Below, in pieces: positions 1 through 47,584 of a stretch of DNA of 64,000 nt (the first letter of the stretch is position 1; each line of letters begins with the position of its first letter). The notes beneath the pieces were generated by a model, which was not told the origin of the DNA, ran no database searches, and saw only the letters and a program-made list of their open reading frames with translations. The DNA comes from Natrialba sp. SSL1 (lineage in GTDB: Archaea > Halobacteriota > Halobacteria > Halobacteriales > Natrialbaceae): contig NZ_MASN01000034.1 of the NCBI RefSeq assembly GCF_001861355.1, positions 62,001-126,000 of the forward strand, in the 5' to 3' direction. A program made the position numbers and the translations under genes.

Positions 1-3000
1 GTGTTCCTTCTACCAACGTTGAGAGCGGTCTCGTAGCGCCGTCTTCGTATACAACAGATTCACCGTCATCACGAAGGATCACGATACCGTACGATGATCG
101 CTGATATCCTGGCACGGGTAATTCATCATCAGGGATGAATGGCTTCTTGATCCGAGTCCAGTCAGCCTCGAATGCATCTTTCGAGCCGTAGACGTGCTGC
201 TCCCCCTGCTCGTACACGACGTACTCATCCGCTGCGTGGTCGTAGCTGTAGATGGCAGGGAATCGGCCCTTCGACGCGTCCGCGAGCGTCGGGAGTCGAG
301 TGTACTCGATCCCATTGCCATCTCTGAGCACGAATTCGTCATCCTCACGCATCCAGACGGTTCGGCTTGAGTCCGTCTCACCAGTCGCGGGCCGGACGGC
401 AGTCACGCCACCTTGTTCGGTCGCTCCTCCGCTGAAGGTGATATGTCCGTCGTGGGTATAGAATCGGGTTTCACCACTTGCGAGCTGTTGAACCGGCGGT
501 GACAGAATCTGCTCAACTCGTTCAGCCCAGTAAGTTTCCGTATCGCCGGGGCGGACAACGAATAACGGAATGTGTTCAGCGTCCTGTGCTTTTCTGAGGT
601 TGGTAAGAACCTTCACCGGGTTCTCCGGTGTCGTGGTTTCGGCCTCGATAGCAAATGTTTCATCAAGATCGGGATGCGTTGCTTTCGCGTCTGGCCGTTC
701 GTTACCATCCTGCGTGAGAATCGTAACACGAAATTCGAGCGTCGTGAGTGCGGCCTCGATCTCCAGTAGCGCCGCATCGTGCGCCTCGCTTCCCGATGCT
801 CTCACGTCACCGGTGTCTGGCGCTGCTGCAGTCTCTCCGATGTCGGTCAGACGGACCAGGAGTTCGTCGGCGGCTGTATCGAGGTCGACATTGAGAAGCC
901 GTGATCGCTCCCGGATGTCCGCGAGCACATCGTAGTCTGGTGGATCACTATCTATTCCATCGAAGCATGCCCGCAGTTCGGCGTCGACGTCTTCGACGGC
1001 CACCCATCCATTCTCGTCGCGAACGCCATCTCGGAGTTGGATGATCCGAATCGTCTTCGCGAGCGCCTGATCGAGATCCTGATTTGCCGTGCCGAGGATC
1101 TCTTGTACTGCTTCGGGAGACCGTTCCGACGATGCGATTCCGGTTTCGGGTACACCGAACTCATCGCTCGTCTGCTCGTGAATGGTCGACAGCAACTCAT
1201 CAAAACGATCTTCTTCCGAGTCGGTCAACGGAGACTTGCTCTCGGGATGACCCGTAGGGATCGGCAACGGTTTCACGCTAAACGGATATGGGCCGGTTTC
1301 GCCGAACGTCGGACTCGGGAGCTGTGCGATCCACTCCCCGCGTGGCAGTGATCGAATCCGATTGGCGAACTCGGTCGGATCCATCTCCTCGTGAGCCATC
1401 GCCTTGGCCAGATCGCGGTCGACGTTGATCTTCCCGACAATCGGGCTGCCGATATCGTTCAGGACGTTCAGATACACTTTTCGCCCGCCTTCGGCTTCGA
1501 TCTGCTCCGGAAACTGCATCGACAATCCAACTGAAAGCCGGAAGCTCCGGCCCTTCTCGAGCAGATCGTTCATAATGTTGGAGACCACGACTGAGGCAGC
1601 CTCGTCGATGAGGAGGTTCACGACGTAGTCGTCCGGCTGCTGGTTCACCGCCCGCTTTTGCTCGCGGAGAGCGTCATCGAGGTTCGTAAGAATCACACCC
1701 GTCATGAGCCGTGCGGCTTCATTGCGGAGACCGCCAAGATCGAACAGAATGACCGTGTTCTCGTCGAGGGCGTCTCGGAAGTCGAACCGGGACTCGGTGT
1801 TGTTGAAGATCCGGCGCAGATGCGTATCCTGTGAGATATAGGCGAGACGATTCCCGACACCACCCATCACGTTCGCGAACGTATTCGGGTCGAGCTGCAG
1901 TTGACGGCGAATCGTCCGGCGGACTTCTTCGTCACTCGAGCGCGGCACTTCATCCTCTCGTGGATTTGGCGGTCCTGCCTGCCAGAGCTGGTCGACTATG
2001 TGCTCCAACTGCCGGTGTCCAAAGTAGTTCACGTCCTCTCGGTAGAGTCCATTCTCGCGGCCGTATTCCTCGTCGAACAGCACCTTGATCAGCGTCTGAA
2101 TTAGCGTCGGTGCGACCGTCGCGCGCTCGTATCGATCTTCTCCCATTACAAGCTTGAGGATCTCTTCGTAGTGGTCGGCCTTCCGCTGTACAGCGTCGGC
2201 ACGACGCAGTCCGTTTTCAAGTGAAGGTTTGAGATTGAAGAACGAAAACCCGGGGAGGATCTCCGGCATCGAGAAATGAATCACGTTCGATTCAAGGTCG
2301 GTCATGCCGAATCGGCGAGCGTGAGCGCGCATGTAATTCTCACTCATGCCGTCGCCCTTTGGATCGATCAGGATGACCGGACCATCTGTGTTCTCGTAGA
2401 GTGAGAGCAGATCGTTGATGAGCGCTTTCGATTTCCCTGCTCCCGTGGTGCCGAAGCGGCCATAGTGTGTCGGCAGTAAGTTCGCTGGAATATGGACTGG
2501 CACTTCTTCTGGGTTGCCGTTTTCATTAATGGCATAGCCGATTGCCATCCCCTCTCGAAACTGCTCCATTAGATCCGGATGCGGTCGCGGGAGTGGATTC
2601 CGAGACCGCTGCTCGGATCGCGTCCCACGACTTCCCTCGACACTCAGATCCTCGGAAGAGGGGACGACAGCGACGCTTGCAAGCTCATCGCCGTTCAATA
2701 CGAGGTCAGGTTTTCGTTTCCCACGCCCGGTGACAAGGTCGGTGTCAAGCACCTTCCGAAGGACCTTTTGAGCCCGTTTTTGCTTGGCTGTTTTCCTGAA
2801 GCCCTGTGATCTGAGTCGTGTACCATCGAGCCCATAGAACGGCCCGTCTAACGAATCCAGGGCCTGAGCGAGCTGATCAAGGCGCCTTTCGAGTCTTTCG
2901 GTTTCGTCATTTGAGGGGACAGCAATCGCGCGCAGGTTGACGGTGAATGTCCGTTTCGGATGTTTGGCATCGATCCGATCATAGCGGTTTTGCGCCGCAC

Positions 3001-3970
3001 TCCCGACGCGATGCCCACGCTTCTCGTCATCAGGGCGTTCTTCCATCTCGAACATTGGGCCGATGTACCGCTGTGCGAACGTATCCCGGCCTTCCATGAG
3101 ATCCTCTTTGCGAAGAGCGGCATCATCCGACCAATCCGGCTTTCGCGTCCAGACAACGTGGAATGCGATCGGATGCTCGGCTTCCGTGAGGTGATCGATG
3201 ATCACGGCGACCGATGAGCGGTCGGTCTCGTATTCGGTTGGATCTGGATCGTCGCTTGAGAACGATTTGATCGTCGTCATCCAGTCGCGTTTGCGTTCAG
3301 CAGTCCCGTACCACTGGACCCCAACAGGTTCGAGGTCAGCGACCGGTGGACGAGCAAGGACCGTTCCGTCTTCCGTTGCAGTCGGTCGTGGAATCGTGGT
3401 AAGTGGGTCATCCTTCGGGAGTGTCTCGGGACCATTGAGTTCGAACACTCCATCCTCGAGTTCGACATGCTGATCAGCGAGAGGTGAGCTGCATTTCCCT
3501 GTGTCCTGATCGAGGAGCGTCTCTCCTCCATCAGTTACTTCCATTTCGTCCTCTTCTGAGAGAGGCTGTATCTCATCCTCAGCAGGCTGGTAAAGTATGT
3601 TTCCGTGTTCAAGTTGTCCCCGGAACTCATCGTGGGTGAATTCAGTTGGTGGAATAAGCTTCTGCTCGAGATCGAAGGAACTGAGCGTCACATCGAACGT
3701 ATTCGGATAGATCGTGTTGAGCTGTTTTTCGAGCGTCTCGAGGTGGGCTGGCTGATTGATACCGTAATAGAATTCGACGGGTTCGTCTTTTCCCTCGCTG
3801 ATTGCGATGAACTCGAACGTTGGAGGGGATGTATCTACGAACGGATTCAGCCGCTTCGTGAATTCAGTTGCATTCGGGTTCTTCAACTTGTGCAGGCTTT
3901 CGAAAACCGCTGGCACCTCCGTCCGTCGAATCCCTTCAGATGTCGGAACGACACGAACATAGTCGCTCAT
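1..3970 (-). CDS. VirD4/TraG-like conjugative coupling ATPase (3' end outside window)
   Basis: An open frame runs from ATG at 3970 off the left edge (over 1320 codons, no stop in the window), so the C-terminus is missing. It carries a P-loop GTTGAGKSKAL with Lys513 and a Walker B LLIDEA with Asp789/Glu790, as in HerA/FtsK-type and TraG/VirD4 ATPases. Residues 1-500 are acidic and not recognised. The region after about 950 includes a stretch like a nuclease-type or accessory domain (DETFAIEAET near 1110). The start overlaps the stop of the VirB4-like gene (ATGA), so the two are translationally coupled. Inferred role: a membrane-associated motor that recruits and pumps DNA during conjugation. 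No clear N-terminal transmembrane segment is visible, so it could instead be a soluble HerA-like ATPase. Confidence 0.8.
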   Translation of the reverse strand, partial: MSDYVRVVPTSEGIRRTEVPAVFESLHKLKNPNATEFTKRLNPFVDTSPPTFEFIAISEGKDEPVEFYYGINQPAHLETLEKQLNTIYPNTFDVTLSSFDLEQKLIPPTEFTHDEFRGQLEHGNILYQPAEDEIQPLSEEDEMEVTDGGETLLDQDTGKCSSPLADQHVELEDGVFELNGPETLPKDDPLTTIPRPTATEDGTVLARPPVADLEPVGVQWYGTAERKRDWMTTIKSFSSDDPDPTEYETDRSSVAVIIDHLTEAEHPIAFHVVWTRKPDWSDDAALRKEDLMEGRDTFAQRYIGPMFEMEERPDDEKRGHRVGSAAQNRYDRIDAKHPKRTFTVNLRAIAVPSNDETERLERRLDQLAQALDSLDGPFYGLDGTRLRSQGFRKTAKQKRAQKVLRKVLDTDLVTGRGKRKPDLVLNGDELASVAVVPSSEDLSVEGSRGTRSEQRSRNPLPRPHPDLMEQFREGMAIGYAINENGNPEEVPVHIPANLLPTHYGRFGTTGAGKSKALINDLLSLYENTDGPVILIDPKGDGMSENYMRAHARRFGMTDLESNVIHFSMPEILPGFSFFNLKPSLENGLRRADAVQRKADHYEEILKLVMGEDRYERATVAPTLIQTLIKVLFDEEYGRENGLYREDVNYFGHRQLEHIVDQLWQAGPPNPREDEVPRSSDEEVRRTIRRQLQLDPNTFANVMGGVGNRLAYISQDTHLRRIFNNTESRFDFRDALDENTVILFDLGGLRNEAARLMTGVILTNLDDALREQKRAVNQQPDDYVVNLLIDEAASVVVSNIMNDLLEKGRSFRLSVGLSMQFPEQIEAEGGRKVYLNVLNDIGSPIVGKINVDRDLAKAMAHEEMDPTEFANRIRSLPRGEWIAQLPSPTFGETGPYPFSVKPLPIPTGHPESKSPLTDSEEDRFDELLSTIHEQTSDEFGVPETGIASSERSPEAVQEILGTANQDLDQALAKTIRIIQLRDGVRDENGWVAVEDVDAELRACFDGIDSDPPDYDVLADIRERSRLLNVDLDTAADELLVRLTDIGETAAAPDTGDVRASGSEAHDAALLEIEAALTTLEFRVTILTQDGNERPDAKATHPDLDETFAIEAETTTPENPVKVLTNLRKAQDAEHIPLFVVRPGDTETYWAERVEQILSPPVQQLASGETRFYTHDGHITFSGGATEQGGVTAVRPATGETDSSRTVWMREDDEFVLRDGNGIEYTRLPTLADASKGRFPAIYSYDHAADEYVVYEQGEQHVYGSKDAFEADWTRIKKPFIPDDELPVPGYQRSSYGIVILRDDGESVVYEDGATRPLSTLVEGT

Positions 3971-6168
3971 CGGCCGTCTTCACCTCCGTCAGCGGAGCCA
4001 CCATCAGATCGAGTCGATGCCTCGGTCGGTGAATCCAAATCGTTCGTTCGCGCTGTTGTCTTGTCCTCGGTATCAGAGTATTCAACCACCTGGTCATCGA
4101 TTGACTGATCAGCACCAGGGAGATCGGCACGAGACTGTTCTTTTGCATCGAAGTCGATCACCTGTTTTTCCTTCTCCATTGCCCGTACTTCGATTCCGCG
4201 CCACTCCCCGTCGACACCGACTAACGCCTCAGAATATCCCGTCTCCTCGTTACCGGGGACGGCGTCTTGGACGAAGCGCATCTGTGCCGAGTTCAAGCCG
4301 AACTCATCGGCCCACTGCGTATCCATTCCGTCGAGATGGTGGAACTGCTTGATCGCACACTGGTCGAGGATTGCTTCGGCTTCGGCGTGCTGGAAGAACT
4401 CGTCGACGGTCTGGGTGACCATCCGGATCGACAGATTGTGGTGGCGGTGATGACGGAACACGATCTCGAGATACTCGAGACTCGCCGCATCCTGCATCAG
4501 GTATCGAGCTTCATCAATGACGAAGACGACCTCCTTGTCGGTTTCCTTCGCCCGCTCGTACACCAACGTGATCAGGAGCTGCATGACGAGACTCGTACTC
4601 CCGCCGAGACTGCCCTCTTGCTGGGCAAGATCGAGATAGATCACTTTTTCGTCGCGAATGTCGAACTCCGTCGGTTGACCGAGATTCTCATACCGACCAC
4701 CGTCAGCGAACGGTCGAAGCTGGTCGATCAGCCACGTTGCATCGGACTGGATCTTTCCCGCTTCTTCGTCAGTCCGGACGACGAATTCTTCCTGATCATT
4801 GACCATCTCCTCGAGGATATCAAGGACGTCTCGTAGCGTCGGACTTTCATTATGATGCGTCGTGATATCGTCAGTGATCCCGTTGCGACTGTAGGCCGTT
4901 TCGATCGCGTTTTCCAGCGTCGTTCGTTTATCGCCAAGCCGAATCCCACGGAGAGCAAAGTAGTTCGACAGGAAGCTCATGACGCTGTCGAGTTTCTCGC
5001 GATAGGGACTGGCGTCCTCGCCCATCGCCCGCTGGACACGCTCGGGCGTGGGCTTGATCTCGAGCGGATTCAGCCCCATATTTCCACCGACAGTAACCCG
5101 CGTTCCGCCGAGAGCCTCGGCGACGCCTGCCCAGTTGTTCAGCGGCTCGAGAATGATCCCGATGCGGTCTTCGCTTTGTTCGATCGAGCGGATAAAGTTC
5201 TGCTTCGCACCGAACGATTTGCCAGAGCCGGGATCACCGATCGTGAACATTGCATAGCCGTTCTCACGAGCGAACGGATCGATCACGACTGGACTATCGT
5301 TCTTCCAGTGCACGCCGAACTCGACACCGTCATCCTCGAGAATCGTCGCATTGTGTGGTGAAGCAAGTAACGCACCGACACTGCCACCGAGGGCGATAGC
5401 TTCCCGACCGAAGGGATTCGAACCGATCGGTGCAGCCGCCTGGATGGCGAGATCTTGCTTACAGATCGCTGTCTTTGGTGAGAGGCCAGCTGGCTGCTCG
5501 CGCAGCCGACTTCGAACCGTTTGGACAGACTCTCGAAGCTCTTCTTCGGTATCTGCCCGAACTGTGATGAACATCCCCTGATCGAACACGCGGCTACCAT
5601 CCTCGACAGCAGTGTACGTCGACACAGCCTCGTTGGCCCGCTCCTGGAGGTACGCGCCCCGAACGCTTCGCTCGAGGTCGGCATCGACCTGCAGGTCGTC
5701 AGCGACGCGCTGAAGCTCATCGCGTGCCTTTTGCTGGTTCTTCGGCGTCATGTGGACGGTCAGGTCGAACTCGACGTCGGTCAGCTCGAACAGCTCGTTC
5801 AGGTAACCGTCCTTCGGATAGTCAGGGTAGTCAGCGATGTACAGCGTCGACGTCCACTGGTTATCGATCTCAGCAGTTCGTGTCCCCCAGCCGACCACAG
5901 CTGGTGCGATCATGCTCTTGTGGCGTTCGGCGATGTCGTCGAGGATGCGCCCCTCGACTTCGCCTGCCTCGAGCGTTTCCTCGTCGAGCAGCTCGGAGAG
6001 TTCGACCTCGTCTTCGTCCTCCTGCCAGTCACGATAGGCCGAGATGCCGATTCCAACGAGCGCACCCAGCACACCAAGTCCAACAATGGCGTGCATCCAA
6101 GTGAGGTCGTTCAAGAGTTGTCCGACCGCCTCTATCGTCTGGAGTGGGATGACCACGTTACTCATCAT
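3967..6168 (-). CDS. VirB4/TraC-like type IV secretion ATPase
   Basis: This 733-residue protein has one predicted transmembrane helix near residues 25-45 (AIVGLGVLGALVGIGISAY). A P-loop GDPGSGKSFG has Lys317, and a Walker B VVFVIDEARYL has Asp552/Glu553. This is the VirB4/TrbE/TraC layout: a variable N-terminal half followed by a RecA-like motor. The frame is open further upstream to 6228. I chose 6168 because GGAGGGA sits just before that ATG and the start overlaps the upstream stop at 6158-6160 only slightly. The gene is coupled by ATGA overlap to the downstream coupling ATPase. VirB4 proteins energise assembly of the secretion channel or pilus at the membrane. The family call is firm; the substrate is inferred from context. 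Confidence 0.88.
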   Translation of the reverse strand: MMSNVVIPLQTIEAVGQLLNDLTWMHAIVGLGVLGALVGIGISAYRDWQEDEDEVELSELLDEETLEAGEVEGRILDDIAERHKSMIAPAVVGWGTRTAEIDNQWTSTLYIADYPDYPKDGYLNELFELTDVEFDLTVHMTPKNQQKARDELQRVADDLQVDADLERSVRGAYLQERANEAVSTYTAVEDGSRVFDQGMFITVRADTEEELRESVQTVRSRLREQPAGLSPKTAICKQDLAIQAAAPIGSNPFGREAIALGGSVGALLASPHNATILEDDGVEFGVHWKNDSPVVIDPFARENGYAMFTIGDPGSGKSFGAKQNFIRSIEQSEDRIGIILEPLNNWAGVAEALGGTRVTVGGNMGLNPLEIKPTPERVQRAMGEDASPYREKLDSVMSFLSNYFALRGIRLGDKRTTLENAIETAYSRNGITDDITTHHNESPTLRDVLDILEEMVNDQEEFVVRTDEEAGKIQSDATWLIDQLRPFADGGRYENLGQPTEFDIRDEKVIYLDLAQQEGSLGGSTSLVMQLLITLVYERAKETDKEVVFVIDEARYLMQDAASLEYLEIVFRHHRHHNLSIRMVTQTVDEFFQHAEAEAILDQCAIKQFHHLDGMDTQWADEFGLNSAQMRFVQDAVPGNEETGYSEALVGVDGEWRGIEVRAMEKEKQVIDFDAKEQSRADLPGADQSIDDQVVEYSDTEDKTTARTNDLDSPTEASTRSDGGSADGGEDGR

Positions 6169-7276
6169 CGTCCCTCCGTGAATGGCCGAGAATTGGCTGC
6201 TCGCGGATTGCATCGCCAGCGTCGTCATACTCGTGCTCTTCCCCTGCCCAGAAGTCCATTGCGAGCACGAACAGTTCGACCGTGGTTAGCCGCCGAGCGG
6301 ACCAACCGGATTGCTTCTGGACGAGTTCGGTCTGGACAGCTCGACAGCGTCGATCCAGCTTCTCGAACATCTTTGCGCGGAGTTCGGCGTCATTGAGGTC
6401 CTCCCGACGAGTCACGAAGGGGTTGAATAGAAAGCCGATCACTGGAAGGTCAGTCAACTTCTCGGCAGGTGATTGCTCGTCGCGATACCGACTATAGACT
6501 TCAAACGGACTCACTTGGACGCCAACGAAGTATCGAAGCTGTTGCGTTCCCTCGAGATCGCGTGGGCGTTGCTCACGATATTCACTCAGTAGTTCCTCGA
6601 AGACCGGGTTCTCTGTAACGTCGTCATCTGTGAGTCGCTCCTCGATCTGGTCAATGAGATTCTCAACTGGAAACGAACGGGTCGTGGCGTGGAATTTGAT
6701 CCGATAATCGAGTTCCGTGTTCGCGAACTCGGCCCCGATGCTCTGTGCATTCGCCCAGTCGCCGGACATCGCGAAGTCCATGTTCCCCGGATTGATCTCG
6801 AGAAGCGCTTCCATCGAGCCATCAGTGCGCTGAATCGTCCGTGCCCCTGGCCACGCACGTTCGATGTTCGTGAGGTCTTGGGTTCGTTCGTCGGGCGCAA
6901 ATGGCGTGTAGTTGATCAGCCCGTCCTTGTTTCGCGTTGCATCTCGCTGCTCGCGTTCATGAGCCGTTTCATCTGGAACGTTGAGCGTTACTCGTGGTCG
7001 CTTGCAGTAGTACCGATACACGTCTGAAAGCCACGTTGACGCTGGGAGATGACTCGGACTTGCGTAGACCGCAGCAACACCGAGCACGACACCGGTGAGG
7101 ACAAGTGGCAGGACGAGTGTGTCGATCCCGCTCATCCCTCCGAGTAACAGGCCGGTGATCGGGAACCCGAGTAAGACGTAGACATCGCCTTCAGCGACGT
7201 TGATAATCGGAACCCGATTCTCCTCGCCGAGTTCGTCCATGATACGCCGTGACGCCGGTCGTTGATCAGCTCCCAT
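6158..7276 (-). CDS. Two-helix membrane protein of the conjugation-like operon
   Basis: This 372-residue protein has two predicted transmembrane helices at about 30-50 and 55-75 (VYVLLGFPITGLLLGGM and VLPLVLTGVVLGVAAVY). A basic turn follows (YRYYCKRPRV), then a roughly 290-residue hydrophilic domain. The layout resembles VirB3/PrgI-type partners that precede or fuse with VirB4, and the gene lies directly upstream of the VirB4-like gene with an 11-bp overlap. It starts two bases after the VirB6-like stop; an internal Met at 7240 is an alternative start. I do not recognise a named family. The proposed role as inner-membrane partner of the VirB4 ATPase is inferred from order and topology only. 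Confidence 0.75.
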   Translation of the reverse strand: MGADQRPASRRIMDELGEENRVPIINVAEGDVYVLLGFPITGLLLGGMSGIDTLVLPLVLTGVVLGVAAVYASPSHLPASTWLSDVYRYYCKRPRVTLNVPDETAHEREQRDATRNKDGLINYTPFAPDERTQDLTNIERAWPGARTIQRTDGSMEALLEINPGNMDFAMSGDWANAQSIGAEFANTELDYRIKFHATTRSFPVENLIDQIEERLTDDDVTENPVFEELLSEYREQRPRDLEGTQQLRYFVGVQVSPFEVYSRYRDEQSPAEKLTDLPVIGFLFNPFVTRREDLNDAELRAKMFEKLDRRCRAVQTELVQKQSGWSARRLTTVELFVLAMDFWAGEEHEYDDAGDAIREQPILGHSRRDDDE

Positions 7277-7278
7277 AA

Positions 7279-8445
7279 TTAGTAGTACCCCGGATCGTTC
7301 TCGGTTCGTCGGTAGGACGGAACACCCTGTTGTCCGTGGGCGTCGGTCACTACGTTATCGTGCTTCGTACCGCCGTTGTTGCCTCCACGGTTGTTCCTGC
7401 CGCTACCCCCATCGGTACTGTATCCACCTCTTCTTGACCCTAGTCGCTGTGCTGCGGCATGCCCAGCAGCGGCCTTCGGTCCCCAGCGGGCAGCCGTCGT
7501 CGCTGCAGCAGGACCAGCAATGGTCGCGGCACCAGCGACAGTCCCAGCAGTGACCGCGGCCTTGGTGGTCCCACCGATGACTTTCGCCGTGATCGGGCTC
7601 GCGTATTTGAACATCTTCCAGATGATGAGTAACGAGAGCACGGGGAGCGACGCGGCAACGAGGTAGCTCAGGAACGCGCTGTCTGGTGCAACGGCGGCGT
7701 CCGTTCCCTCACTGAATAGCAGTTCATATCCTTTGAAGAAAACTGCCACCGGGAGTGGCAAAATCGCGAGTGGGACGAACTTCATACAGACGGTTTTCGC
7801 GACGCGTGAAACGATCGGCAATCCTCCGAAAGCGATTGCAATCCCGATCGGCATTGCATACAGATAGACGTACAGCAGGATCTCCCGAATGAAAAACAGT
7901 GCCTGCAATACCCACATCGCAAAGCCGCCAATCATCGCCATCAATAGTGCAAGCGCAGGATTCGTAATTGATACTGCGAGAAAGTCGGTCATCACATCCA
8001 TGAGTGTGTCAAACCCGGGGATGAGTGCGATAGTGAACCCATTAACAAGATATAGTGAGAGTACCGCAACCCAGTACCAGGTCACGATCAGAAATGCACC
8101 AGTCCACGAGCTGCGTCGAGCCTTCCGTGCCTCGTAGGAACTCCCGAAATTGAAAATGCGGATCGTGTGACGCCCCTGTACGCAGATTACGAGTAACAGA
8201 AGGGCTAACAGCATGATCTCGCCAGCTACCAATGCATCATGGAGATCGGTCCACGGTTCGTTCTGTGGAGTGCCGAAGACGAACGTATCGCCAGTCTCAG
8301 GGACTGGCGTTCCCAACAGTTCCTCGGTTACCTCCTCATAGCCCTCAGTAAGTCCCTGCTGGAACCATTCGATTACCGTCTCGACAGCGTCCTCAAACCA
8401 CTCACGACCGATCTCGACGAGAGAGAAGGAGAGGACAACGTTCAT
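7279..8445 (-). CDS. Polytopic VirB6/TrbL-like membrane protein
   Basis: This 388-residue protein has about six to seven hydrophobic helices between residues 70 and 290 (for example LLALLLLVICV, FLIVTWYWVAVLSLYLV, ALLMAMIGGFAMWVL). An Ala/Gly-rich amphipathic stretch at 295-340 is followed by a polar Gly/Asn-rich tail. VirB6/TrbL proteins of type IV secretion systems have this plan: several helices, then an Ala/Gly-rich C-terminal region. The start overlaps the stop of the lipoprotein gene (ATGA). It would form part of the DNA translocation channel in the cytoplasmic membrane. Sequence identity to bacterial VirB6 is not obvious; the call rests on topology and operon position. Confidence 0.72.
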   Translation of the reverse strand: MNVVLSFSLVEIGREWFEDAVETVIEWFQQGLTEGYEEVTEELLGTPVPETGDTFVFGTPQNEPWTDLHDALVAGEIMLLALLLLVICVQGRHTIRIFNFGSSYEARKARRSSWTGAFLIVTWYWVAVLSLYLVNGFTIALIPGFDTLMDVMTDFLAVSITNPALALLMAMIGGFAMWVLQALFFIREILLYVYLYAMPIGIAIAFGGLPIVSRVAKTVCMKFVPLAILPLPVAVFFKGYELLFSEGTDAAVAPDSAFLSYLVAASLPVLSLLIIWKMFKYASPITAKVIGGTTKAAVTAGTVAGAATIAGPAAATTAARWGPKAAAGHAAAQRLGSRRGGYSTDGGSGRNNRGGNNGGTKHDNVVTDAHGQQGVPSYRRTENDPGYY

Positions 8446-9263
8446 TGAACCTCCTCGATTTCGATGTCACACTCGACCAAATCGTCACCAGTATATGCGA
8501 CTTCGTACGCTCCAGTGGGGGACTCATCTTGTACAGTCGTTTCGACGGTCGTCTCAAACTCCCCGTATTCTGTCTCCGGTGAACAGGAGACATTTCCGGT
8601 TGCCGAGGTGAACGGTTGTGAGTAGCTGTAGATCGTAACCGTTTCACCGGGTGGAAGCACGACGGCATCTGCGTATCCACCCAGATCGCTCTCGGTATCG
8701 TAGATCCCACTTTCCTCGAAGTCGTCTGAAGTCGGCCCCGGTATGTCACCGGCGAAGACAAGCCTCACAGCAGCATCCGGCCCTGTTCCGTCATTCTCGA
8801 GTGTCAGGATCGTCTCGGTTCGGGTTCGACGATCACCTGCATCCTCGTACATCTCGTCGGGATAATTTCGCCCCAGTCGGAGGTCTACGAGCTGAACATC
8901 TGGCTCGATTGTAATCGATGTCGATGCCTGCTCCTCACCGTCAGATCCGCCCAGCACTTCGTACTCACCTGGCGAGTAGTCAGTATTGAGGGCGAATGTT
9001 TCACGACGGACACCAGCGGACAGTGTAGTATCTGCAAAGAGCTCGCCGTTCGGCTGAATGACCGACAGCTTATCGAGTGTGTGCTCATCGTCGAGCTCGA
9101 CGATGAGATCGGTCTCTTCAACAGTGACAGACTCGAATACGTCATTCTCATCAGTACCGTTCTCGCTTCCGTTTGAAGCGATACAACCGGCGATGCTGGT
9201 GATCGTACCGATGGCGATACTTCCGAGGAACGTCCGTCTGGTGGGGGTGTTGATTCGTGTCAT
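8442..9263 (-). CDS. Tat lipoprotein of the conjugation-like operon
   Basis: The 273-residue product starts with a twin-arginine signal (TPTRRTFLGS) and a lipobox ending IAGC, so it should be exported folded and lipid-anchored outside the membrane. The frame continues upstream to 9401, but the signal peptide and a GGAGG about 10 nt before the ATG at 9263 fix the start. That ATG also overlaps the stop of the previous gene. The mature part is acidic and beta-rich in appearance, with no family that I recognise. Its position between the large secreted protein and the VirB6-like gene suggests an extracellular component of the transfer apparatus. Confidence 0.8.
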   Translation of the reverse strand: MTRINTPTRRTFLGSIAIGTITSIAGCIASNGSENGTDENDVFESVTVEETDLIVELDDEHTLDKLSVIQPNGELFADTTLSAGVRRETFALNTDYSPGEYEVLGGSDGEEQASTSITIEPDVQLVDLRLGRNYPDEMYEDAGDRRTRTETILTLENDGTGPDAAVRLVFAGDIPGPTSDDFEESGIYDTESDLGGYADAVVLPPGETVTIYSYSQPFTSATGNVSCSPETEYGEFETTVETTVQDESPTGAYEVAYTGDDLVECDIEIEEVQ

Positions 9264-11008
9264 GGGTATGGATCCTCCGAGATTCGAAAGAATGAGCCGA
9301 GTTTCAATCCTGCGTACAGTGCGACCAAAAACGGAATCGAAATCCAGAATACGTCGACGAGCAGTGCAAACCATCCGCTCACAGAACCAAGTGGGTGCCA
9401 CGCGGCACTCGACGTGTCACCAACGTATGCTGGATCGTGGGTTCGCCACGAGCCTGGGTGGTACTCTGCCGAATAGATCCCCGGCGTGCCTATCGTGACC
9501 GTTGCGACGCCGGAGGCGTTCGTTCGAACTTGTTCATCCCCGATTGAGATATAGCCATCTCGTGACTCCACACCGATCGGGGCAAACCGAGGATCGTCTT
9601 CAAACGGATTCTCGAGAACGATCGGTGCGCCGGTTTCATTGTCACGAAGCTCGATACGGACGGTCGCTTCCGTCTCGGTTTGGTCGACGATCTCGACGGA
9701 GAGGTTACTCTCGCGAATCTCGCGTTCAGTCCCACCCTCCGGTTCGACGAGCTCAGCGTTCACACCACGAACGATCCCCTGGACCTCGAGGTGATCGCGA
9801 TCAACGTCTGTGTAGCGGATCGCCATTCCATGCGATTGCGAGTACGGCTCGTCGATGACGTCAATCTCAACGTTCTCGTGAACCGTCGAATTCGGTGAGG
9901 GGCTCTCAGAACCCCAGATTTCCTGGATCTCTGGGCCGTCGATGATCGGGTCCGTGCGCGGGCCAACTTCGGAGGGATACGCTCGGACAGAGACGGGTAA
10001 TGCGTCCGAATGGATCACTTTCTCGTCTGTCCGGTTCGAGTGGACTAGGTAATCCCAGTCCGTATCACGGGCTGTATAATACCGCCAGACCCCCCGAACG
10101 GCCGCCTCTCCGTCCTCGGTGAGCGTATACCCGTGCCATGGCTGCGATTGGTAGATCGCCACGCCAGCGTCCCCATCGGGGTACTCCGCGTAGTAGATCG
10201 ACGCTGTCAGATCGTACACCTCGACGTCGAGTTCAGAGGAGACGGTTACCTCATCAGTCGGATACTCGTAGCGTGTCTGCGTCTGGTTGTCGACCTCTTC
10301 AGTGATTTTCTGCTCGAGGTCCACCTCGATATCTGCCTCGAGACGGAGTGTCGACGAACCAGCCCCCTCGAGGTCATAATCGAATACGGGCGTCTGCTCG
10401 TCCTCATCACTTGCGATGACCTCCCCGTCCTGGAGGAGTTGAATTTCGCTTACTTCGTGATCGAGCACCGACCACTCGATCGTGTCGTTCCCGATCTGTT
10501 CATCGTCAGGTGCTCGAGCCCGATAATCAACAAGGCCACGCAGCTCACCCTCAGGTGCAACGTAGAGTGGCGTTTCGTTCTCATCCTGATGCACCATCGT
10601 TGACGGTTGGGCAGCGAAGATCGTCGCGTGGGCGTCCTCGATCGCAAGCGAACTCTCAAGATCGGCGTGCTGTGGATAGATCGAAGTATCCCCGTCACCG
10701 GGCTCGAGTGAGTCGAAATCATACTCCGTCCACAGTTCCGCCGTCTCTGGTGGCTCTTGGAACGTGATGTCAGTACAGTTCGCTAACGCGTGCATCTCCG
10801 TCCGGTTCTCGCCGTATCGGTCGTAGTACACCTCGTCGCTGAGGCACTCGTTTGGTGCTTTGGACCACAGTGTCGCCGTCTCGTTTTCATCGAGGTCGCT
10901 GTCGTCAGTGCCCGGACGTGGGGGATGGTCGGCACTTCCGACACCAACGGCGAAGCTCACACACCCGATGAACAGGGCGACGCTGAGGACGACCGTGAGT
11001 CGGTGCAT
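9260..11008 (-). CDS. Secreted, C-terminally anchored surface protein
   Basis: The start at 11008 gives a 582-residue protein with a signal-like helix at residues 4-24 (LTVVLSVALFIGCVSFAVGVG). A very acidic ectodomain of about 520 residues follows, with several Asn-X-Thr/Ser sites (possible archaeal N-glycosylation). A C-terminal membrane helix (VFWISIPFLVALYAGLKL) ends in a short tail. The frame is open to 11074, but the hydrophobic signal argues for 11008. The stop overlaps the lipoprotein start. No known domain is recognised. By position it is a large external component, perhaps for cell contact during transfer; it could also be an S-layer-associated adhesin. The function is inference. Confidence 0.75.
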   Translation of the reverse strand: MHRLTVVLSVALFIGCVSFAVGVGSADHPPRPGTDDSDLDENETATLWSKAPNECLSDEVYYDRYGENRTEMHALANCTDITFQEPPETAELWTEYDFDSLEPGDGDTSIYPQHADLESSLAIEDAHATIFAAQPSTMVHQDENETPLYVAPEGELRGLVDYRARAPDDEQIGNDTIEWSVLDHEVSEIQLLQDGEVIASDEDEQTPVFDYDLEGAGSSTLRLEADIEVDLEQKITEEVDNQTQTRYEYPTDEVTVSSELDVEVYDLTASIYYAEYPDGDAGVAIYQSQPWHGYTLTEDGEAAVRGVWRYYTARDTDWDYLVHSNRTDEKVIHSDALPVSVRAYPSEVGPRTDPIIDGPEIQEIWGSESPSPNSTVHENVEIDVIDEPYSQSHGMAIRYTDVDRDHLEVQGIVRGVNAELVEPEGGTEREIRESNLSVEIVDQTETEATVRIELRDNETGAPIVLENPFEDDPRFAPIGVESRDGYISIGDEQVRTNASGVATVTIGTPGIYSAEYHPGSWRTHDPAYVGDTSSAAWHPLGSVSGWFALLVDVFWISIPFLVALYAGLKLGSFFRISEDPYP

Positions 11009-11049
11009 AGGGGGGTTGTTTTGGTGGAATCTATAGAGTGGCGCGGACA

Positions 11050-11451
11050 CTACCACGGGACAAAGTCGACACACTCTGCAAGCGGAAGGCCCATTGCTGA
11101 ACCTGCAACTGTGTAGAGTGGACCGAGTATCAGCAGGATGACCGCGGACTTCAGTGCGGTTCGTTTGTGCTGTTTGAGTCCCTTCTTCTGCTCGGGGTTC
11201 ATCGTGAACATCTCGGCAAGGGAATCTGCCTGCCAGACGACTACTAACCCGACAATGCCGAGGGCGGTCGTGATCTGGAAGAACCCAGAGATCATTCCAG
11301 GCAACTGCTCGGCTTCGCAGACCACGTCGTCCTGAGCGAGGACAGGGTCGACGGCAATGATGCTCAACACGACCAACACAGTAACTGCCTGTCGTATAAT
11401 GAGCCGGTTGTAAGGCGATTCAGTATTCTCTGGGAGGTCGTTATCTTTCAT
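11050..11451 (-). CDS. Small pilin-like (VirB2/TrbC-type topology) membrane protein
   Basis: This 133-residue protein has a cleavable-looking signal ending VLAQDD near residue 40. A first hydrophobic helix follows (FFQITTALGIVGLVVVW), then a short basic loop (KKGLKQHKRTALK) and a second helix (AVILLILGPLYTVAGSA). Signal peptide, two helices and a positive loop are the hallmarks of VirB2/TrbC conjugative pilins. It sits second in a gene cluster that also encodes VirB4-, VirB6- and VirD4-like proteins. The start overlaps the stop of the 106-residue gene (ATGA). Two Cys in the mature part (VVCEAE, AECVDF) could form a disulfide. The pilin role is inferred from topology and neighbours. Confidence 0.72.
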   Translation of the reverse strand: MKDNDLPENTESPYNRLIIRQAVTVLVVLSIIAVDPVLAQDDVVCEAEQLPGMISGFFQITTALGIVGLVVVWQADSLAEMFTMNPEQKKGLKQHKRTALKSAVILLILGPLYTVAGSAMGLPLAECVDFVPW

Positions 11452-11768
11452 TGGCGTGTCTCGTTTTGAGGAGTTCCACAGTTCTCGTTCGCCGGTGTAT
11501 CGGGATGATTCCCGCCCTTCGAATCGGCTGAGTCCGTGACGAGATCCTGGAGATCGCTCAATCGATTTGTTTTCCCGACAACGTCATCGAACGAATGGCC
11601 TTGCTCCTGAGCGCGTTCAAGGAGATCCCGAAACTCGTGTGGATCAATATCACGAACAGCCATCTCTTCCCGAAGCGCCTGTCGATACAGCGCTGAGGCA
11701 TTGATATAGTCAAACCACTCCAGAAACAGCTGATCGATCTTCTCGATGGTGACTTGCCGGGTTTTCAT
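11448..11768 (-). CDS. Small soluble protein, first gene of the conjugation-like operon
   Basis: This 106-residue hydrophilic protein, not recognised, is predicted largely helical in its first 75 residues, with a disordered Asn/Pro/Gly-rich tail. There is no signal or membrane segment. Its stop overlaps the start of the pilin-like gene (ATGA), so the two are probably co-translated. As the first gene of an eight-gene minus-strand run it may be a regulator or assembly factor; nothing in the sequence decides this. Confidence 0.65.
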   Translation of the reverse strand: MKTRQVTIEKIDQLFLEWFDYINASALYRQALREEMAVRDIDPHEFRDLLERAQEQGHSFDDVVGKTNRLSDLQDLVTDSADSKGGNHPDTPANENCGTPQNETRQ

Positions 11769-11941: not shown

Positions 11942-13339
11942 TTATGAACGATTCGCGAGTTTCAGCGGGATACCTTCTTTTGTCTGGGTGGTGACCCGAG
12001 GTTCGAGAGTAAGTTTTTGGTCTCTTTCCCAGTCGAACTGGAATTGCTGGCCGATTGTCGCAAGAACGACTTTGGCTTCCAAGAGGGCGAACTCTCGTCC
12101 AATGCAGGATCGACGACCGCTCCCGAAAGGAGCGTAGGCGAAGTCGTGAAGACCCTCCTCAAACTCGTCTGACCATCGAGTAGGGCGGAACGACAGGGGT
12201 TCGTCATAGAACTGCTCATCCCGGTGAACGTGGATTACCGACAAGTGAATCTCGTGCCCCTCAGGGAGCCGATATCCGTTGATTTCAACGTCAGTCATCG
12301 TTTGGCGCGGGATCGTGTGGATCGGCGGGTAGAGCCGAAGTGCCTCAGTAATGATTTGCTCCGTGAACACCAGGTTCTGGAGATCGTTGTATGATGGTGG
12401 GTCACCGTCCAGCACTGTGTCCAGTTCCTGTTGGAACTGCTCTCGAATGTCCGGCTGCGTCGCTAGCACATACAATGTAAACGCAAGTGCAGTGGCTGTC
12501 GTCTCATGGCCCGCAAACACCATCGTGATCAGTTGATCTTCTATCTCCTTCGTCGTGAGTTGTGGCCCTTCCTTCGCGTCGCGAGCCCGTTGTAGCTGCG
12601 TGAGAAGATCTGGCGTCTCGGAACACGGAGACACTTGCTCGGGATTGTGCGGAGCACGTGGAGAGGCTTCTTTGAGACCGGTCGACTGGGAGACGGAGCG
12701 ACCACTTCCCTCAGCAAGCAACGTCCGAACCTCTTGGCGAAGTCGCTTCGTCGAGTGTTCGAACCGCCGACGGGCCGGTGTCGGGATCCAGGGAGGCAGA
12801 ATCCAAGATGAAGGCGTGAACCACTCGTTGAGTCCATCGGCGGCGTCTCGGAGTTCCTGATCTTCTCCAGGTATTAGCTCCCGGCCGAATAAGGTGGCAA
12901 AGAGAATTTCGAGAGTGAGATCTCGCATCTCCGTTTCCATATCCCGGATTTCATCCTCACCCCATGTCTCGAGCCGGCGTTCAGTACAGGCCACCATTTG
13001 ATCTGTGTAGCCCCGAATTTGTTCACGGTAGAACAGCGGTTGCATCATTTCGCGCTGGCGTCGCCACTGCTGCCCCTCTGCTGAGAGCAATCCGTTACCG
13101 AACGCGCGTCGATAATCTTCGGTCTTTTCGAATGCCTCGACATCGGTTACTAGCACGCGGTTGAAATAGTCCGGATGAGCCAGTACGAAGACATCGTCAA
13201 CAGCTGGGAGGTCCATTCGATAGATATCGCCACATTCTGTCGTCGCACGCTCCACGAACTCGAACGGGTCACGAGCGAATTGGACCGCGTGCTTGAGAAT
13301 GGGGTATCCGGATGGTGCTGGTGGTAGCTGCGAGCCCAC
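11942..13339 (-). CDS. Cytochrome P450
   Basis: Heme-thiolate monooxygenase with all core signatures: an I-helix AGHETT oxygen-activation motif, an EALR (ExxR) K-helix motif, and the Cys-ligand loop FGSGRRSCIG with the axial Cys near residue 412. Length (about 465) is typical. The frame is open to a TTG at 13411, but that extension is AT-rich. The GTG at 13339 gives an N-terminus beginning VGSQLPPAPSGYP, which looks like a normal P450 proline-rich start, so I prefer it; the longer form would add a hydrophobic anchor. An inserted Ser/Pro-rich loop lies near residues 235-260. Redox partner genes are not adjacent. The substrate is unknown. A divergently transcribed regulator follows at 13504. 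Confidence 0.93.
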   Translation of the reverse strand: MGSQLPPAPSGYPILKHAVQFARDPFEFVERATTECGDIYRMDLPAVDDVFVLAHPDYFNRVLVTDVEAFEKTEDYRRAFGNGLLSAEGQQWRRQREMMQPLFYREQIRGYTDQMVACTERRLETWGEDEIRDMETEMRDLTLEILFATLFGRELIPGEDQELRDAADGLNEWFTPSSWILPPWIPTPARRRFEHSTKRLRQEVRTLLAEGSGRSVSQSTGLKEASPRAPHNPEQVSPCSETPDLLTQLQRARDAKEGPQLTTKEIEDQLITMVFAGHETTATALAFTLYVLATQPDIREQFQQELDTVLDGDPPSYNDLQNLVFTEQIITEALRLYPPIHTIPRQTMTDVEINGYRLPEGHEIHLSVIHVHRDEQFYDEPLSFRPTRWSDEFEEGLHDFAYAPFGSGRRSCIGREFALLEAKVVLATIGQQFQFDWERDQKLTLEPRVTTQTKEGIPLKLANRS

Positions 13340-13503
13340 GATAGTTAGCCATTGTGTGACGACTGTAAAAAGTACTGCTAGATGTTTGAGTCTGTGTGTC
13401 AGTTGGAACAATAATACATGTCAGATAGATACATTCCTACACATGATCTCGACGATATATTCATAGTACTGGACACAAGAATGTTGAGGACGGGTGAGAA
13501 TTT

Positions 13504-42574: not shown

Positions 42575-44833
42575 ATGTCACAATACGATCCGGCGGATAC
42601 ACCCGATTCGCATCATGCTCACGACGAGCAACAACGAGCAGAAAAACCAACTGACCGCGATTGTCCGTGCTGTCGCGTCTGCGGATTAACCGCTGAACGG
42701 ACCGACGAGCCGGCGGTCCGACATGAGCATCGGGAAGCGGGTCATGAGGAAAGTGAGCACGAAGACCCCGATCGCTCGCATGACGACCACGACAGTCACG
42801 ACCACGAGTCGCACGTCGATCACTCCGATCACGAGGAGATGTTCAAGCAGCGCTTTTTTGTCTGCCTCGTCCTCTCGCTGCCGGTTCTTTACTACAGCCC
42901 GATGCTTCAGGAGTGGTTCGGCTATGCAGCCGTGACGTTCCCCGGGAGTGAGTTCGTCGGGCCGGTTCTCGGCACGATTGTCTTCATCTACGGTGGAATC
43001 CCGTTCCTGCGAATGGGGGCGGTCGAAGTGCGAAACCGCGAACCGGGGATGATGTTACTGATCTCGCTCGCCATTACCGTCGCGTTCGTCTACAGCGTCG
43101 CTGCGATCGGCTTCGGGATTGGTGATCCGTTCTTCTGGGAACTCGTCACGCTGATCGTCATCTTCCTGCTCGGCCACTGGATCGAGATGCGTAGTGTCCG
43201 GCGAGCCTCGGGCGCGCTCGACGAGCTAGCAGAGCTGATGCCGGATACGGCCGAACGCGTAACCAAAGACGGCGAGACCGAAAAAGTCCGCATTGACGAC
43301 CTCGCGGAAGACGACCTCGTACTCGTTCGACCCGGGGCAAACGTCCCCGCTGACGGTGTCGTCGAAGACGGTGAATCGAACGTCAACGAGGCGATGATCA
43401 CCGGCGAATCGCGCCCGGTAAAGAAAGAGCCGGGTGACGAGGTGATCGGCGGCACGACCAACCGCGACGGCAGCCTTCGGGTGCGCGTGAGTGCAACTGG
43501 CGAGGAGACGACGCTTTCCGGAATTATGCGACTGGTCGAGGAGGCCCAACAGAGCCGCTCTCGAACCCAGGTACTCGCTGACCGTGCAGCTGGATGGCTG
43601 TTCTACGCAGCAATTGCGGTGGCGGCTGTTACAGCCGTCGCGTGGACAGTGGCGGTCGGCTTCGGGTTACCGGTTGTCGAGAGGGTCGTTACCGTACTCG
43701 TCATTGCCTGTCCGCACGCGCTTGGATTGGCTGTGCCGCTGGTCGTCGCAATCAACACGTCGATGGCGGCGCAAAACGGCATGCTCGTGCGCGATCGGAT
43801 CGCCATGGAGGAAGCGCGCAACCTCGATACAATTGTCTTCGATAAGACGGGGACGCTTACAGAAGGTGAACAAGGGGTTGTGAATATCACCACGTCCGAA
43901 GACTGGGATGAGGACGAACTACTAGCCGTGATGGCTGCTGCGGAAGGCGACTCCGAACACATGATTGCAGAGGCGATTCGTGAGGAGGCCAATGAACGAG
44001 GACTCTCCATACCAAGTGTGCGCGAGTTTGAGGCGCTCCAAGGCCGCGGGGTCCGCGCGACCGTAGAAGTTGAAGCGGCGGCGACTCCCGGCGCGGGTGA
44101 GGACGGCGTACGAGATGGCGAGACGGTCTATGTCGGTGGCCCGAACTTGCTCCGCCACTTGGACATTGAGCTCAACGCCGAACTCGAAGCGTTCGCGGAC
44201 GAAGCTGGTGAGCGCGGTCAGGGTGTCGTCTACCTGCTTCGAAATGGCGAGGCGGTAGGCGCAGTCGCGCTTGCAGACGTGATCCGGGACGAGAGCTTTG
44301 AGGCGATCGAAGCACTCCACGAGATGGGCGTCGAGGTTGCAATGCTCACTGGAGACTCCGAGGACGTCGCAAGCGCTGTCTCCGATGAACTCGATATTGA
44401 CACGTACTTCGCCGAAGTACTCCCGGAAGACAAGGACAAGAAGATTATCGAACTCCAGAACCAGGGTAAACTGGTAGCGATGGTTGGCGACGGAGTGAAC
44501 GACGCACCTGCGCTGACTCGGTCTGATGTGGGCATCGCAATCGGGAGTGGGACAGACGTCGCCGTGGAGTCTGCCGATGTCGTCCTCGTGGAGAACGATC
44601 CCCGTGACGTCGCGCATCTCGTCCGTTTGAGCCGGAAGAGCTACAGAAAGATGCAAGAGAACCTCGTGTGGGCGGCCGGCTACAACGTCTTCGCGCTGCC
44701 GCTCGCAGCTGGCGTACTAGCCCCAATCGGAATATTGCTTTCACCAGCAGTTGGTGCCGTCCTGATGTCAGCGAGTACGGTCATCGTCGCCATCAACGCA
44801 CAACTCCTGCGACGAGCTGATCTGTCTGTGTAA
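42575..44833 (+). CDS. copB: Copper-exporting P1B-type ATPase, CopB type
   Basis: This 752-residue protein has a His/Asp-rich N-terminus ([16 protein letters not shown]), a Cys-rich patch ([10 protein letters not shown]), eight helices, a CPH metal-binding motif (Cys379-Pro-His381, IACPHALG), the phosphorylation loop DKTGTLT with Asp423, TGES (TGESRPV), and a hinge [15 protein letters not shown] motif and His-rich N-terminus are typical of CopB-type pumps that expel Cu. It is preceded by Csp and DUF305. Confidence 0.95.
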
Positions 44834-45301: not shown

Positions 45302-47584
45302 TTACAGCTCGATATTCCCCAGCCGCGTCGAGTTCGTGATGACCGAGATGCTCGACGTAATCATCGCCGCGACGGCGATCACCGGGTGGAGCAGCCCGAA
45401 GAAAGCGATCGGGATCGCCACCGTGTTGTAGATGAACGCCCAGAAGAGGTTCTGCTTGATCTTCGAGAAGATCCGCTCCGACAGCGTGAACGAGTCAACG
45501 AGCGCATCGAGCGAGCCCCGCACAAGGCTGACGTCGCTCGACTGGATGGCGATGTCAGTTCCCGTGCCGATAGCAACGCCGATGTTCGCCTGTTTCAGCG
45601 CGGGCGCGTCATTGATCCCGTCGCCGACCATCGCAACGTTGTATCCCTCTTCTTGTAATTCGCTGACCTTGTCGATCTTATCCTGCGGGAGGACGCCAGC
45701 CATGACTCGACTGGGGTCGATATCGACCTTTTCAGCGATCGCGCGGGCTGTCCGCTCGTTGTCCCCGGTGATCATCCAGGTTTCGAGCCCACGGTCGTGC
45801 AACGCCTGAATCGCATCGTGGGATTCCTCTTTGATCGTGTCGGCCGTGCTGATGACGCCGACGTTTTCGTCTTCGACACCGACGAGCACCGTCGTTTTCC
45901 CTTCTTGCTCTAGGGCGCGCAGTTCGTCCTTGTAGGCAAGCGGAATGCCGACTTCGTCGAAGAACTTCGTGTTTCCGACGTAGACCGATCGTCCGTCGAT
46001 CTCTGCTTGGATCCCTTTTCCGGCGACGTTATCGAACGCCTCCGGCTCGGTCAGTTCGATTTCCTGGTCTTCGGCGTACTCGATGATAGCCTGCCCGATC
46101 GGGTGTTCGCTCCCTCGTTCGGCCGAGGCAGCGAGTCTGACCACTTCGCGTTCGGTCAGACCGGGATCTTTTAGGTGTCCGCCGTCAGCACTGACCGCAG
46201 GGTGGTCTCCCACGACGATGTCCGTGACAGAGTGGTTGCCCTCCGTGATCGTCCCCGTCTTGTCCAGCACCACGACGTCAAGATCCTTCATCGTCTGAAT
46301 TGCCTCACCGTCGCGGAACAGGATGCCATTCTCGGCAGCCTTCCCAGTACCGGCCATCAGCGCCGTCGGCGTCGCCAGTCCGAGTGCACACGGACACGAG
46401 ATCACCAGAACGGCAACAGCCGCGAAGATCCCGAGCGTCAACGGATCGAGAGCGAGATCCACCCAGGGGAGGTACGGTGCACCGATACCCGCGACGGCCC
46501 CCATCCCGTCCGGGAACAGGAACCACAACACGAACGAGAGCGCTGCGAGTATCAATACGGTCGGGACGAAGTAGTTCGTGACACGGTCGGTGAAGGCCTG
46601 GATCGGGACTTTGGTTCCCTGAGCTTCTTCGACGAGTTCGACGACCTGTGAGAGGAACGTGTCGTCACCGACCTTTTCGGCCCGCACCTTGATCATCCCG
46701 GACTGATTCACCGTCGCACCGATTACTTCGTCGCCTTCCTCCTTGGTCACGGGATCGGACTCGCCGGTCACCATCGATTCATCGACGCTGCTTCGTCCCT
46801 CGATGACGGTTCCGTCGAGTGGAACCTTCTCGCCGGGACGAACGACCATTACATCCCCTATCTCGACTTCTTCAATGGGAACTTCGATTTCTTCGTCATC
46901 TCTCCGAACCGCTGCCGTCTCTGCCTGCATGGACATCAGGCCCTCGATGGCCGAACTCGCACGTCCTTTCGCTCGGTGTTCGAGGTACGTTCCCACGTTG
47001 TGCGAGGCCATGATCATCGCTCCGACGCCAGCGTAGTTCTCGATCGGCGTCACGAAGACCATCACGCCGGTCACCCACGCGACAAGGGTCCCGATCGAGA
47101 TCAGCGAATCCATGTTGAACGTCCCATTCTGGATACCCCGAATCGCGGACGCGTGGGTAGTCCGACCGTAGTAGAAGACGACGAGCGTGGCGAAGACGAA
47201 CATAGCAACGTCGATCTGGAAGCCGGTCAGAACCTCCAACGGTGTCCACATGAACACCATGAGTAGGACGATTGGAGACGTGACAATCCACGCCCGGATC
47301 GCCATCCGACGCATCTCCTGTAGCTCTTCTTTTCCTTCCATCTCGTCGTTCAGTAACTCGTCACGAACACCGTAACCAGAGGCTTCTACGGCCTCGATGA
47401 GTTCTTCAACAGGTACATCCGAGTCGTGGCTGACGTCTGCTCGCTCCGTGGCGAAGTTGACTGAAGCGTCCTGCACCCCGTCTACATCTTCGAGACTGTC
47501 CTCTATTGTAGACGCGCACGTCGTACACGACATGCCCGAGAGGGACAGGTCGGTTCGTTCTATATTCGAATGGTCGTTTGACAT
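45302..47584 (-). CDS. copA: Copper-exporting P1B-1 ATPase, CopA type
   Basis: This 760-residue protein has an N-terminal HMA domain with CxxC (Cys20/Cys23, GMSCTTCAS), eight helices, a CPC ion motif (Cys397-Pro-Cys399, [16 protein letters not shown]), TGES (TGESDPV), a DKTGTITEG phosphorylation loop with Asp441, HP (SEHPIG) and [10 protein letters not shown]. This is a canonical Cu(I) exporter. It is convergent with CopB and transcribed away from the TRASH regulator, which lies upstream on the same strand. CopZ (48420), on the opposite strand, would supply Cu(I). Confidence 0.97.

Follow-up and report, generated by a model that had tools for sequence, protein, structure and literature searches.

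The window analysed here is a stretch of 64,000 nucleotides from Natrialba sp. SSL1 (contig C34, NZ_MASN01000034.1; C34:62001-126000 in a genome of 4.58 Mb and 61 contigs). Its relatives are haloarchaea, and its left end carries eight consecutive minus-strand genes, A to H (Table 1), followed beyond the window edge by gene I, which adjoins H and encodes an NrS-1-type primase-polymerase. On sequence evidence the operon is confirmed as a VirB-type DNA-transfer machine. Its coupling ATPase, H, bears a predicted nuclease domain and a winged helix and lies beside an iteron and hairpin element that is a candidate origin of transfer (oriT). These two domains, the linked primase and the element go beyond a preliminary description of this DNA, which had proposed a complete haloarchaeal transfer machine from the eight genes.

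Table 1 Genes of the transfer operon and domains of H, in window coordinates
Feature	Position	Strand	Description
gene A	11448-11768	minus	small soluble protein, 106 amino acids (aa); conserved first gene of the operon
gene B	11050-11451	minus	VirB2-like pilin candidate, VirB2-sized
gene C	9260-11008	minus	582 aa, acidic, secreted, C-terminal transmembrane (TM) helix; no known family; conserved across operons
gene D	8442-9263	minus	Tat lipoprotein; no known family
gene E	7279-8445	minus	VirB6/TrbL_3, 388 aa, 7 predicted TM helices; PF19590
gene F	6158-7276	minus	two-TM protein, 372 aa, precedes VirB4; VirB3-like by layout only
gene G	3967-6168	minus	VirB4-type ATPase, 733 aa from ATG 6168
gene H	2-3970, runs left to C34:61648	minus	type IV coupling protein/VirD4-like ATPase, 1,440 aa; residues 1-1323 in window
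H, P-loop motor region	1331-2509	minus	residues 488-880; DUF87 at 488-763 plus conservation
H, predicted PD-(D/E)XK nuclease-like domain	491-793	minus	residues 1060-1160; putative active site D1094, E1109, E1111

Parts and conservation of the operon

The two ATPases and the polytopic protein are supported by family matches. G is assigned to VirB4 by PF19044 and PF03135, both over cut-off; its best NCBIfam models are CD1110 (1.6e-41, below that model's equivalog cut-off) and types from mycoplasma integrative and conjugative elements, and it matches PDB entry 4ag5 at 1.4e-8. E matches its VirB6 family at 678.6 bits. The part of H inside the window matches DUF87 over cut-off (32.1 bits) and the SXT-TraD model at an E-value of 4.2e-9, below that model's cut-off, and TrwB_AAD_bind, below cut-off here, is matched over cut-off in some relatives. 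The VirB4-type and VirD4/TraG-type ATPases and the VirB6/TrbL layout of the preliminary description are upheld by these matches. So is the grouping of the ATPases with transfer rather than with HerA/FtsK proteins, given CD1110 for G and, for H, TraD at 4.2e-9 vs HerA at 0.005. A HerA/FtsK repair operon was ruled out by profile scores and synteny, and a viral origin was rejected after a VirB4 scan of viral contigs gave none.

The remaining proteins were characterised by topology. Three hydrophobic stretches in B are read as a signal, ending in ..AQ, and a pair of TM helices joined by a basic loop, and B has two invariant Cys; C has a signal and a C-terminal TM helix, D starts with the Tat lipoprotein signal RRTFLGS...AGC, and F has two TM helices. 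The topologies of F, D and C fit the two-helix protein before VirB4, the Tat lipoprotein and the secreted anchored protein that had been described earlier. Archaeal-specific outer parts had also been proposed; C and D are indeed conserved in these operons, and they belong to no known family. No Pfam family was matched by A, B, C, D or F.

Gene order is strongly conserved. The VirB4 profile identified 144 candidate stretches in the genome collection, 100 of them encoding it, and in the best 80, which were retained, genes A to H keep their order and strand wherever the contig permits; gene A is unrecognised in some of these loci, a few are fragments, and one is labelled as a metagenome-assembled genome of a PVC bacterium, probably a contamination. 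The run of eight minus-strand genes is therefore beyond chance, and the genes around the ATPases recur together in haloarchaeal plasmids and genomes alike. Overlaps of the ATGA type had been claimed for most junctions: four of the seven (A/B, C/D, D/E and G/H) do overlap by 4 bp, while two of the others are gaps, of 41 and 2 bp, and the third overlaps by 11 bp, all these lengths depending on the ATG start chosen for each open reading frame. A search with protein E alone gave matches in 85 of 72,556 plasmid records, every one of the 85 being typed non-mobilizable.

The primase is a regular companion of the coupling ATPase. Gene I matches NrS-1 primase-polymerase structures at 2.7e-38 and PF22763 at 1.5e-30, and in sister systems its slot is occupied by a PriS-like primase, J, paired with K. 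Seventy loci have VirB4 and 8 kb or more of sequence downstream; H is recognisable in 58 of them, and the slot holds I in 38, J in 26, neither in 6 and both in none. In each of the 26 J loci the genes H and J share a 4-bp overlap. Because the primase is locked to the coupling ATPase, conversion of single-stranded to double-stranded DNA would appear to be part of the process, by analogy with bacterial conjugative plasmids, which have primases. Six loci (L024, L027, L028, L029, L087 and L089) have VirB4 and primase I and an H that the search did not recognise; their coupling ATPase may be of a divergent type like that of L117.

The predicted nuclease, the winged helix and the element beside H

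In clade I, the window's type, residues 1060-1160 of H contain an invariant H, a PD and an ExE, and the motif P-D-x12-16-E-x-E is present in 36 of 36 proteins. In clade J the motif D-x-GExE is found in 26 of 27 (D[AV] pattern), the 27th reading D-I there. An AlphaFold (AF2) model of H residues 1000-1323 has a mean pLDDT (predicted local distance difference test) of 79, with about 76-95 in the core blocks, and shows an alpha-beta-beta-beta-alpha-beta core in which D1094 stands at the second strand and E1109 and E1111 on the third. VIA aligned this model with Can2 (Z 9.6), PaqCI (9.1), Hjc (8.8) and FokI (7.9), and the matches shown at Z of at least 8 are, judging from their titles, PD-(D/E)XK proteins, 3dnx being annotated as unknown. 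Foldseek gave VRR-NUC 4qbn at a probability of 0.99 and Hjc at 0.97, with E-values so weak (best 0.02) that the fold probability carries the call. We therefore predict that residues 1060-1160 belong to the PD-(D/E)XK nuclease superfamily, with putative activity. The region has no Pfam match, and its profile found nothing meaningful among PDB sequences.

The domain is widespread, the clade-I nuclease profile matching 129 of 292 genomes of the class and the J-type profile 119 of 292. We chose 26 further loci from clade-I profile matches that looked unlike the window's type; in 23 of them the nuclease lies inside an ATPase protein beside a same-direction VirB4 gene, the exceptions being L118, L135 and L140, and all seven of the nuclease-ATPase proteins scanned from these loci match coupling-protein families over cut-off. 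The D and both E residues are kept in at least 46 of the 47-49 aligned rows that have a letter there. Two of the exceptions encode giant nuclease-bearing proteins, L118:335-8371 (2,678 aa), which also matches H across the motor, and L140:2922-12554 (3,210 aa). Stand-alone winged-helix and nuclease genes of the J type, 285-292 aa long, were found at L158:5695-6570, L160:5436-6311, L161:5950-6828 and L157:5867-6724; the first three each have as neighbours a GGTTTTCGC-like repeat array and a partner of 274-277 aa, and that of L157 adjoins an NrS-1-like primase. These proteins look like initiators of mobilisable elements. In a literature search of titles and abstracts, with little coverage of subscription papers and preprints, no nuclease fused to an archaeal coupling protein was described.

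Most other junctions of clade I are tight, while the gap between H and I measures 39-447 bp. In the window's own genome it contains five exact copies of an 11-bp iteron, TGGGTGGAACA, in both directions (C34:61413-61591), and no further exact copy occurs in the 126 kb examined. Repeats and hairpins were surveyed in 32 gaps of 150-560 bases (the window genome and 31 loci; L016 and L026 were omitted for length), and in 30 of the 32 some 9-mer occurs at least four times when one mismatch is tolerated. Shuffled sequences gave means of 2.1-3.0 and maxima of 3-5, and a gap that has just four copies is accordingly not significant by itself. The iteron sequence varies by lineage, with spacing that is similar. 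The iterons are followed, in the window genome and at 25 of 33 loci, by a hairpin, CC(A/G)AC-TAGnATAG..GGGG..CCCC-GT(T/C)GG; its variable pair is G-C in 7 of the 25 and A-T in 18, every change being paired. L081 has a looser version, and no hairpin was found at L016, L019, L021-L023, L025 or L026. This element of less than 300 bp is our candidate oriT.

The winged helix at the C-terminus of H was recognised by a Pox_D5 match in L009 and located in the window's H by alignment. Its variation follows that of the iterons. Among pairs of loci whose nucleases are at least 93% identical, the winged helix is 92% identical where the iteron is the same (67 pairs) and 32% where it is different (57 pairs), with iteron labels assigned by hand and pairs that are not independent, whereas the two groups are alike in the identity of the motor (97%), nuclease (97%) and gene I (84-85%). 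L052 and L088, for example, share 100% of the motor and 99% of the nuclease, and have 35% winged-helix identity and different iterons. A Mantel test over eight lineages, using eight of nine winged-helix clusters with one locus each and the iteron register set by hand (L081 was left out, having no clear iteron), related iteron similarity to winged-helix identity with r 0.76 (exact p 0.0009); when no register was imposed, r was 0.56 (p 0.004). In the same eight lineages the iterons do not track the N-terminal part, the motor, the nuclease, the middle region or gene I (for gene I, r 0.05, p 0.40). A functional link between winged helix and iteron is favoured because the signal persists at 20-56% identity.

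How transfer would start

The preliminary description had suggested looking for a relaxase to the left of the window; what lies there is the primase-polymerase gene. Seven relaxase families (PF13814, PF03432, PF08751, PF02486, PF01076, PF03389 and PF07514) were sought in the own genome and six or seven complete plasmids with the type IV secretion system (T4SS), that is, over 7 genomes or records for PF13814 and 8 for the other six, and none was found over cut-off. The negatives for PF13814 and PF01076 are weaker because their controls gave no match over cut-off, those for the other five families having done so. The single weak PF13814 match, on contig C30, scores 18.6 bits (cut-off 25.3) and has one internal stop. 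One of the seven T4SS plasmids, L007, has a broken operon. Rep-Arvir (PF25227), an archaeal endonuclease resembling Rep_trans that conjugative elements are also reported to carry (parts of PMC13107129), is on none of the seven plasmids; the own genome has it on contigs C43 and C30 only. Of the complete transfer machine proposed earlier, then, the DNA-transfer reading stands and completeness does not, with no tested relaxase family on the plasmids and H cut by the window edge. By a rule requiring a known relaxase the system would not be filed as a conjugative element, and yet it seems to work like one.

On balance we lean towards a conjugative system whose H protein alone would serve as coupling protein, origin reader and relaxase-like nuclease, working at a neighbouring oriT, together with a primase for the transferred strand. 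In such a system B, E, F and G would build a VirB-type pilus or channel with its assembly motor, and C and D would be archaea-specific surface parts. The C-terminal winged helix of H would bind the iterons in the gap that separates H from the primase gene, as the co-variation suggests, and the PD-(D/E)XK domain would cut at or near the conserved hairpin, starting transfer in place of a separate relaxase. The TraD/VirB4-type motor of H might then feed one strand into the VirB6/VirB4 channel, and the adjacent primase (I here, J and K in sister systems) could start the complementary strand in the recipient. Nicking by H at the iteron/hairpin element is the most economical account of how transfer may start. 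That a coupling motor, an oriT reader and a PD-(D/E)XK nickase in one chain, with an operon primase, constitute a new class of transfer initiator that replaces the relaxase is a more tentative proposition, which we regard as possible and somewhat doubtful.

Several observations weigh against this account. B as a VirB2 pilin and F as VirB3 are candidates by layout only (size, topology and place), their profiles finding nothing meaningful among PDB sequences, so that the pilin-like protein of the preliminary description keeps its size, topology and place and lacks a pilin family or PDB match; and no TM segment was found in H, the N-terminal one of coupling proteins included. The ExE of the nuclease lacks the usual lysine, which is replaced by E, and activity is uncertain for that reason; the weak Foldseek E-values count here too. 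The J-type nuclease gave a poor structure model (pLDDT 50), unfit for structure search, and the case that it is homologous to the I type is no more than suggestive, two earlier hhalign runs giving nothing and deeper profiles a probability of 46%. The J clade is without this winged helix, and no clear origin-like array was seen beside J-type operons in eight loci. The window's winged helix is 42% identical to those of both L022 and L058, and shares its iteron with L058 only. Since the winged helix is encoded right beside the gap, exchange of both as one block can look like co-evolution, and the link could be partly due to physical linkage.

Other explanations fit part of these data. The iterons and hairpin may be a replication origin for the primase-polymerase, with H a mere neighbour and the T4SS using a relaxase of another kind or a tyrosine recombinase elsewhere. 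NrS-1-type primases do occur in replicons, and a phage-integrase-like protein is encoded on the contig (window 49872-51359) and, in two annotated plasmids, close to the operon; MOBM relaxases are tyrosine-recombinase-like, as stated in parts of PMC12857230. We nevertheless think this unlikely, given that the iterons track the winged helix of H and not the primase, and that the contig has its own Orc1/Cdc6 and B-family polymerase genes some 45-51 kb away. A regulatory role, in which the winged helix of H autoregulates the primase promoter through the iterons as operators and the nuclease serves something else, would suit the position of the array upstream of gene I and the often regulatory nature of winged helices; five sites over about 180 bp with a conserved hairpin, exact copies confined to this gap, and a binding domain fused to motor and nuclease make it decidedly improbable. 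The nuclease of DdmD is among the closest structural matches of the domain (Foldseek, VIA), and a defensive or exclusionary enzyme degrading competing plasmid DNA can be imagined; that it is fused, in 23 of 26 loci, to a coupling-type ATPase next to VirB4 and that repeat arrays border stand-alone copies makes this slightly less probable still. Least probable, in our estimate, is an importer of chromosomal DNA like Ced/Ted rather than a conjugative exporter: archaeal VirB2, VirB4 and VirB6 homologues serve import there (parts of PMC9905601) and the CedB model matches H at 3e-5, but that match scores 22.7 bits against a cut-off of 700, and the system is plasmid-borne (85 records) and has a coupling ATPase and a primase.

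Setting and relation to known systems

Contig C34 looks like a megaplasmid, possibly in integrated form, because it also encodes two Orc1/Cdc6 proteins and a B-family polymerase. A cytochrome P450 gene (window 11942-13411) directly precedes the operon, in the place where many of the loci L031-L076 have the exonuclease VII subunits XseA and XseB (26 neighbouring pairs counted) and a 55-aa DNA-binding protein upstream of gene A. A multicopper oxidase (window 27208-28845) and two P-type ATPases (42575-44833 and 45302-47584) are probably metal-resistance cargo. Elsewhere on the contig are an ArdC-like N-terminal domain (PF08401 over cut-off; C34:23039-24040, L003:1039-2040) and a protein with a Thoeris ThsB TIR-like domain (C34:8950-9900, L004:6950-7900), a possible defence gene. 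ArdC-like proteins are of an anti-restriction type frequent on conjugative plasmids.

The D...ExE motif of H is also that of MOBC relaxases such as TraX of pAD1 and pAM373, and in pAM373 TraX it falls on D152, E170 and E172, which we take to be the catalytic positions of pAD1 TraX. From the TraX sequence, the winged helix precedes the nuclease in these relaxases; they are separate small proteins, unlike the nuclease of H, which is fused to a coupling ATPase. They belong to the same PD-(D/E)XK superfamily, as given in parts of PMC12857230. Identification of the H nuclease as MOBC by sequence was rejected, with no Replic_Relax profile match and no hhalign support in two rounds, which also tells against our account; H is not filed as MOBC for this lack of profile similarity, despite the like fold class and motif.

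Judged by its parts and VirB4 profiles, the system resembles the T4SS of the Gram-positive/archaeal VirB4 group (FATA; PMC3158045), which likewise has VirB4, VirB6, a coupling ATPase and small pilin-like and two-TM proteins in one operon. The haloarchaeal system differs in having no known relaxase, a primase in the operon, archaeal outer parts and a coupling ATPase without TM helices and with nuclease and winged-helix domains. Ced/Ted import also uses VirB2-, VirB4- and VirB6-like parts, according to the same portions of PMC9905601, whereas the haloarchaeal system is plasmid-borne and has a coupling ATPase, a nuclease and a primase. Thermococcus pT33-3 and the Sulfolobus conjugative plasmids are likewise archaeal; they encode VirB4 and VirD4 homologues and lack a known relaxase (sections of PMC12857230). 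Compared with them, the haloarchaeal system has VirB6 and pilin candidates. Available passages of PMC9905601 know of no relaxase homologues and propose HerA-NurA, and those of PMC12857230 report none identified on the archaeal plasmids discussed, the string 'haloarchae' being absent from its main text. Within haloarchaea, fusexin elements carry VirB4 and TraG/VirD4 homologues (PMC9259645, in part), vesicle plasmids with a VirB4-like ATPase are mentioned in portions of PMC10818511, and pNG500 of Haloarcula is listed as conjugative in earlier literature.

How archaeal conjugation is initiated without a recognisable relaxase has been an open question since at least 2011, going by the parts available of PMC3158045, PMC9905601 and PMC12857230. 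Our analysis offers a small target for direct testing on plasmids of culturable haloarchaea: a single protein, three of its residues and a DNA element shorter than 300 bp. Relaxase-free initiation may explain why all 85 matching haloarchaeal plasmids are typed non-mobilizable, and, if the proposal is true, the presence of the same nuclease on divergent coupling ATPases would make it a general haloarchaeal answer to the missing relaxase.

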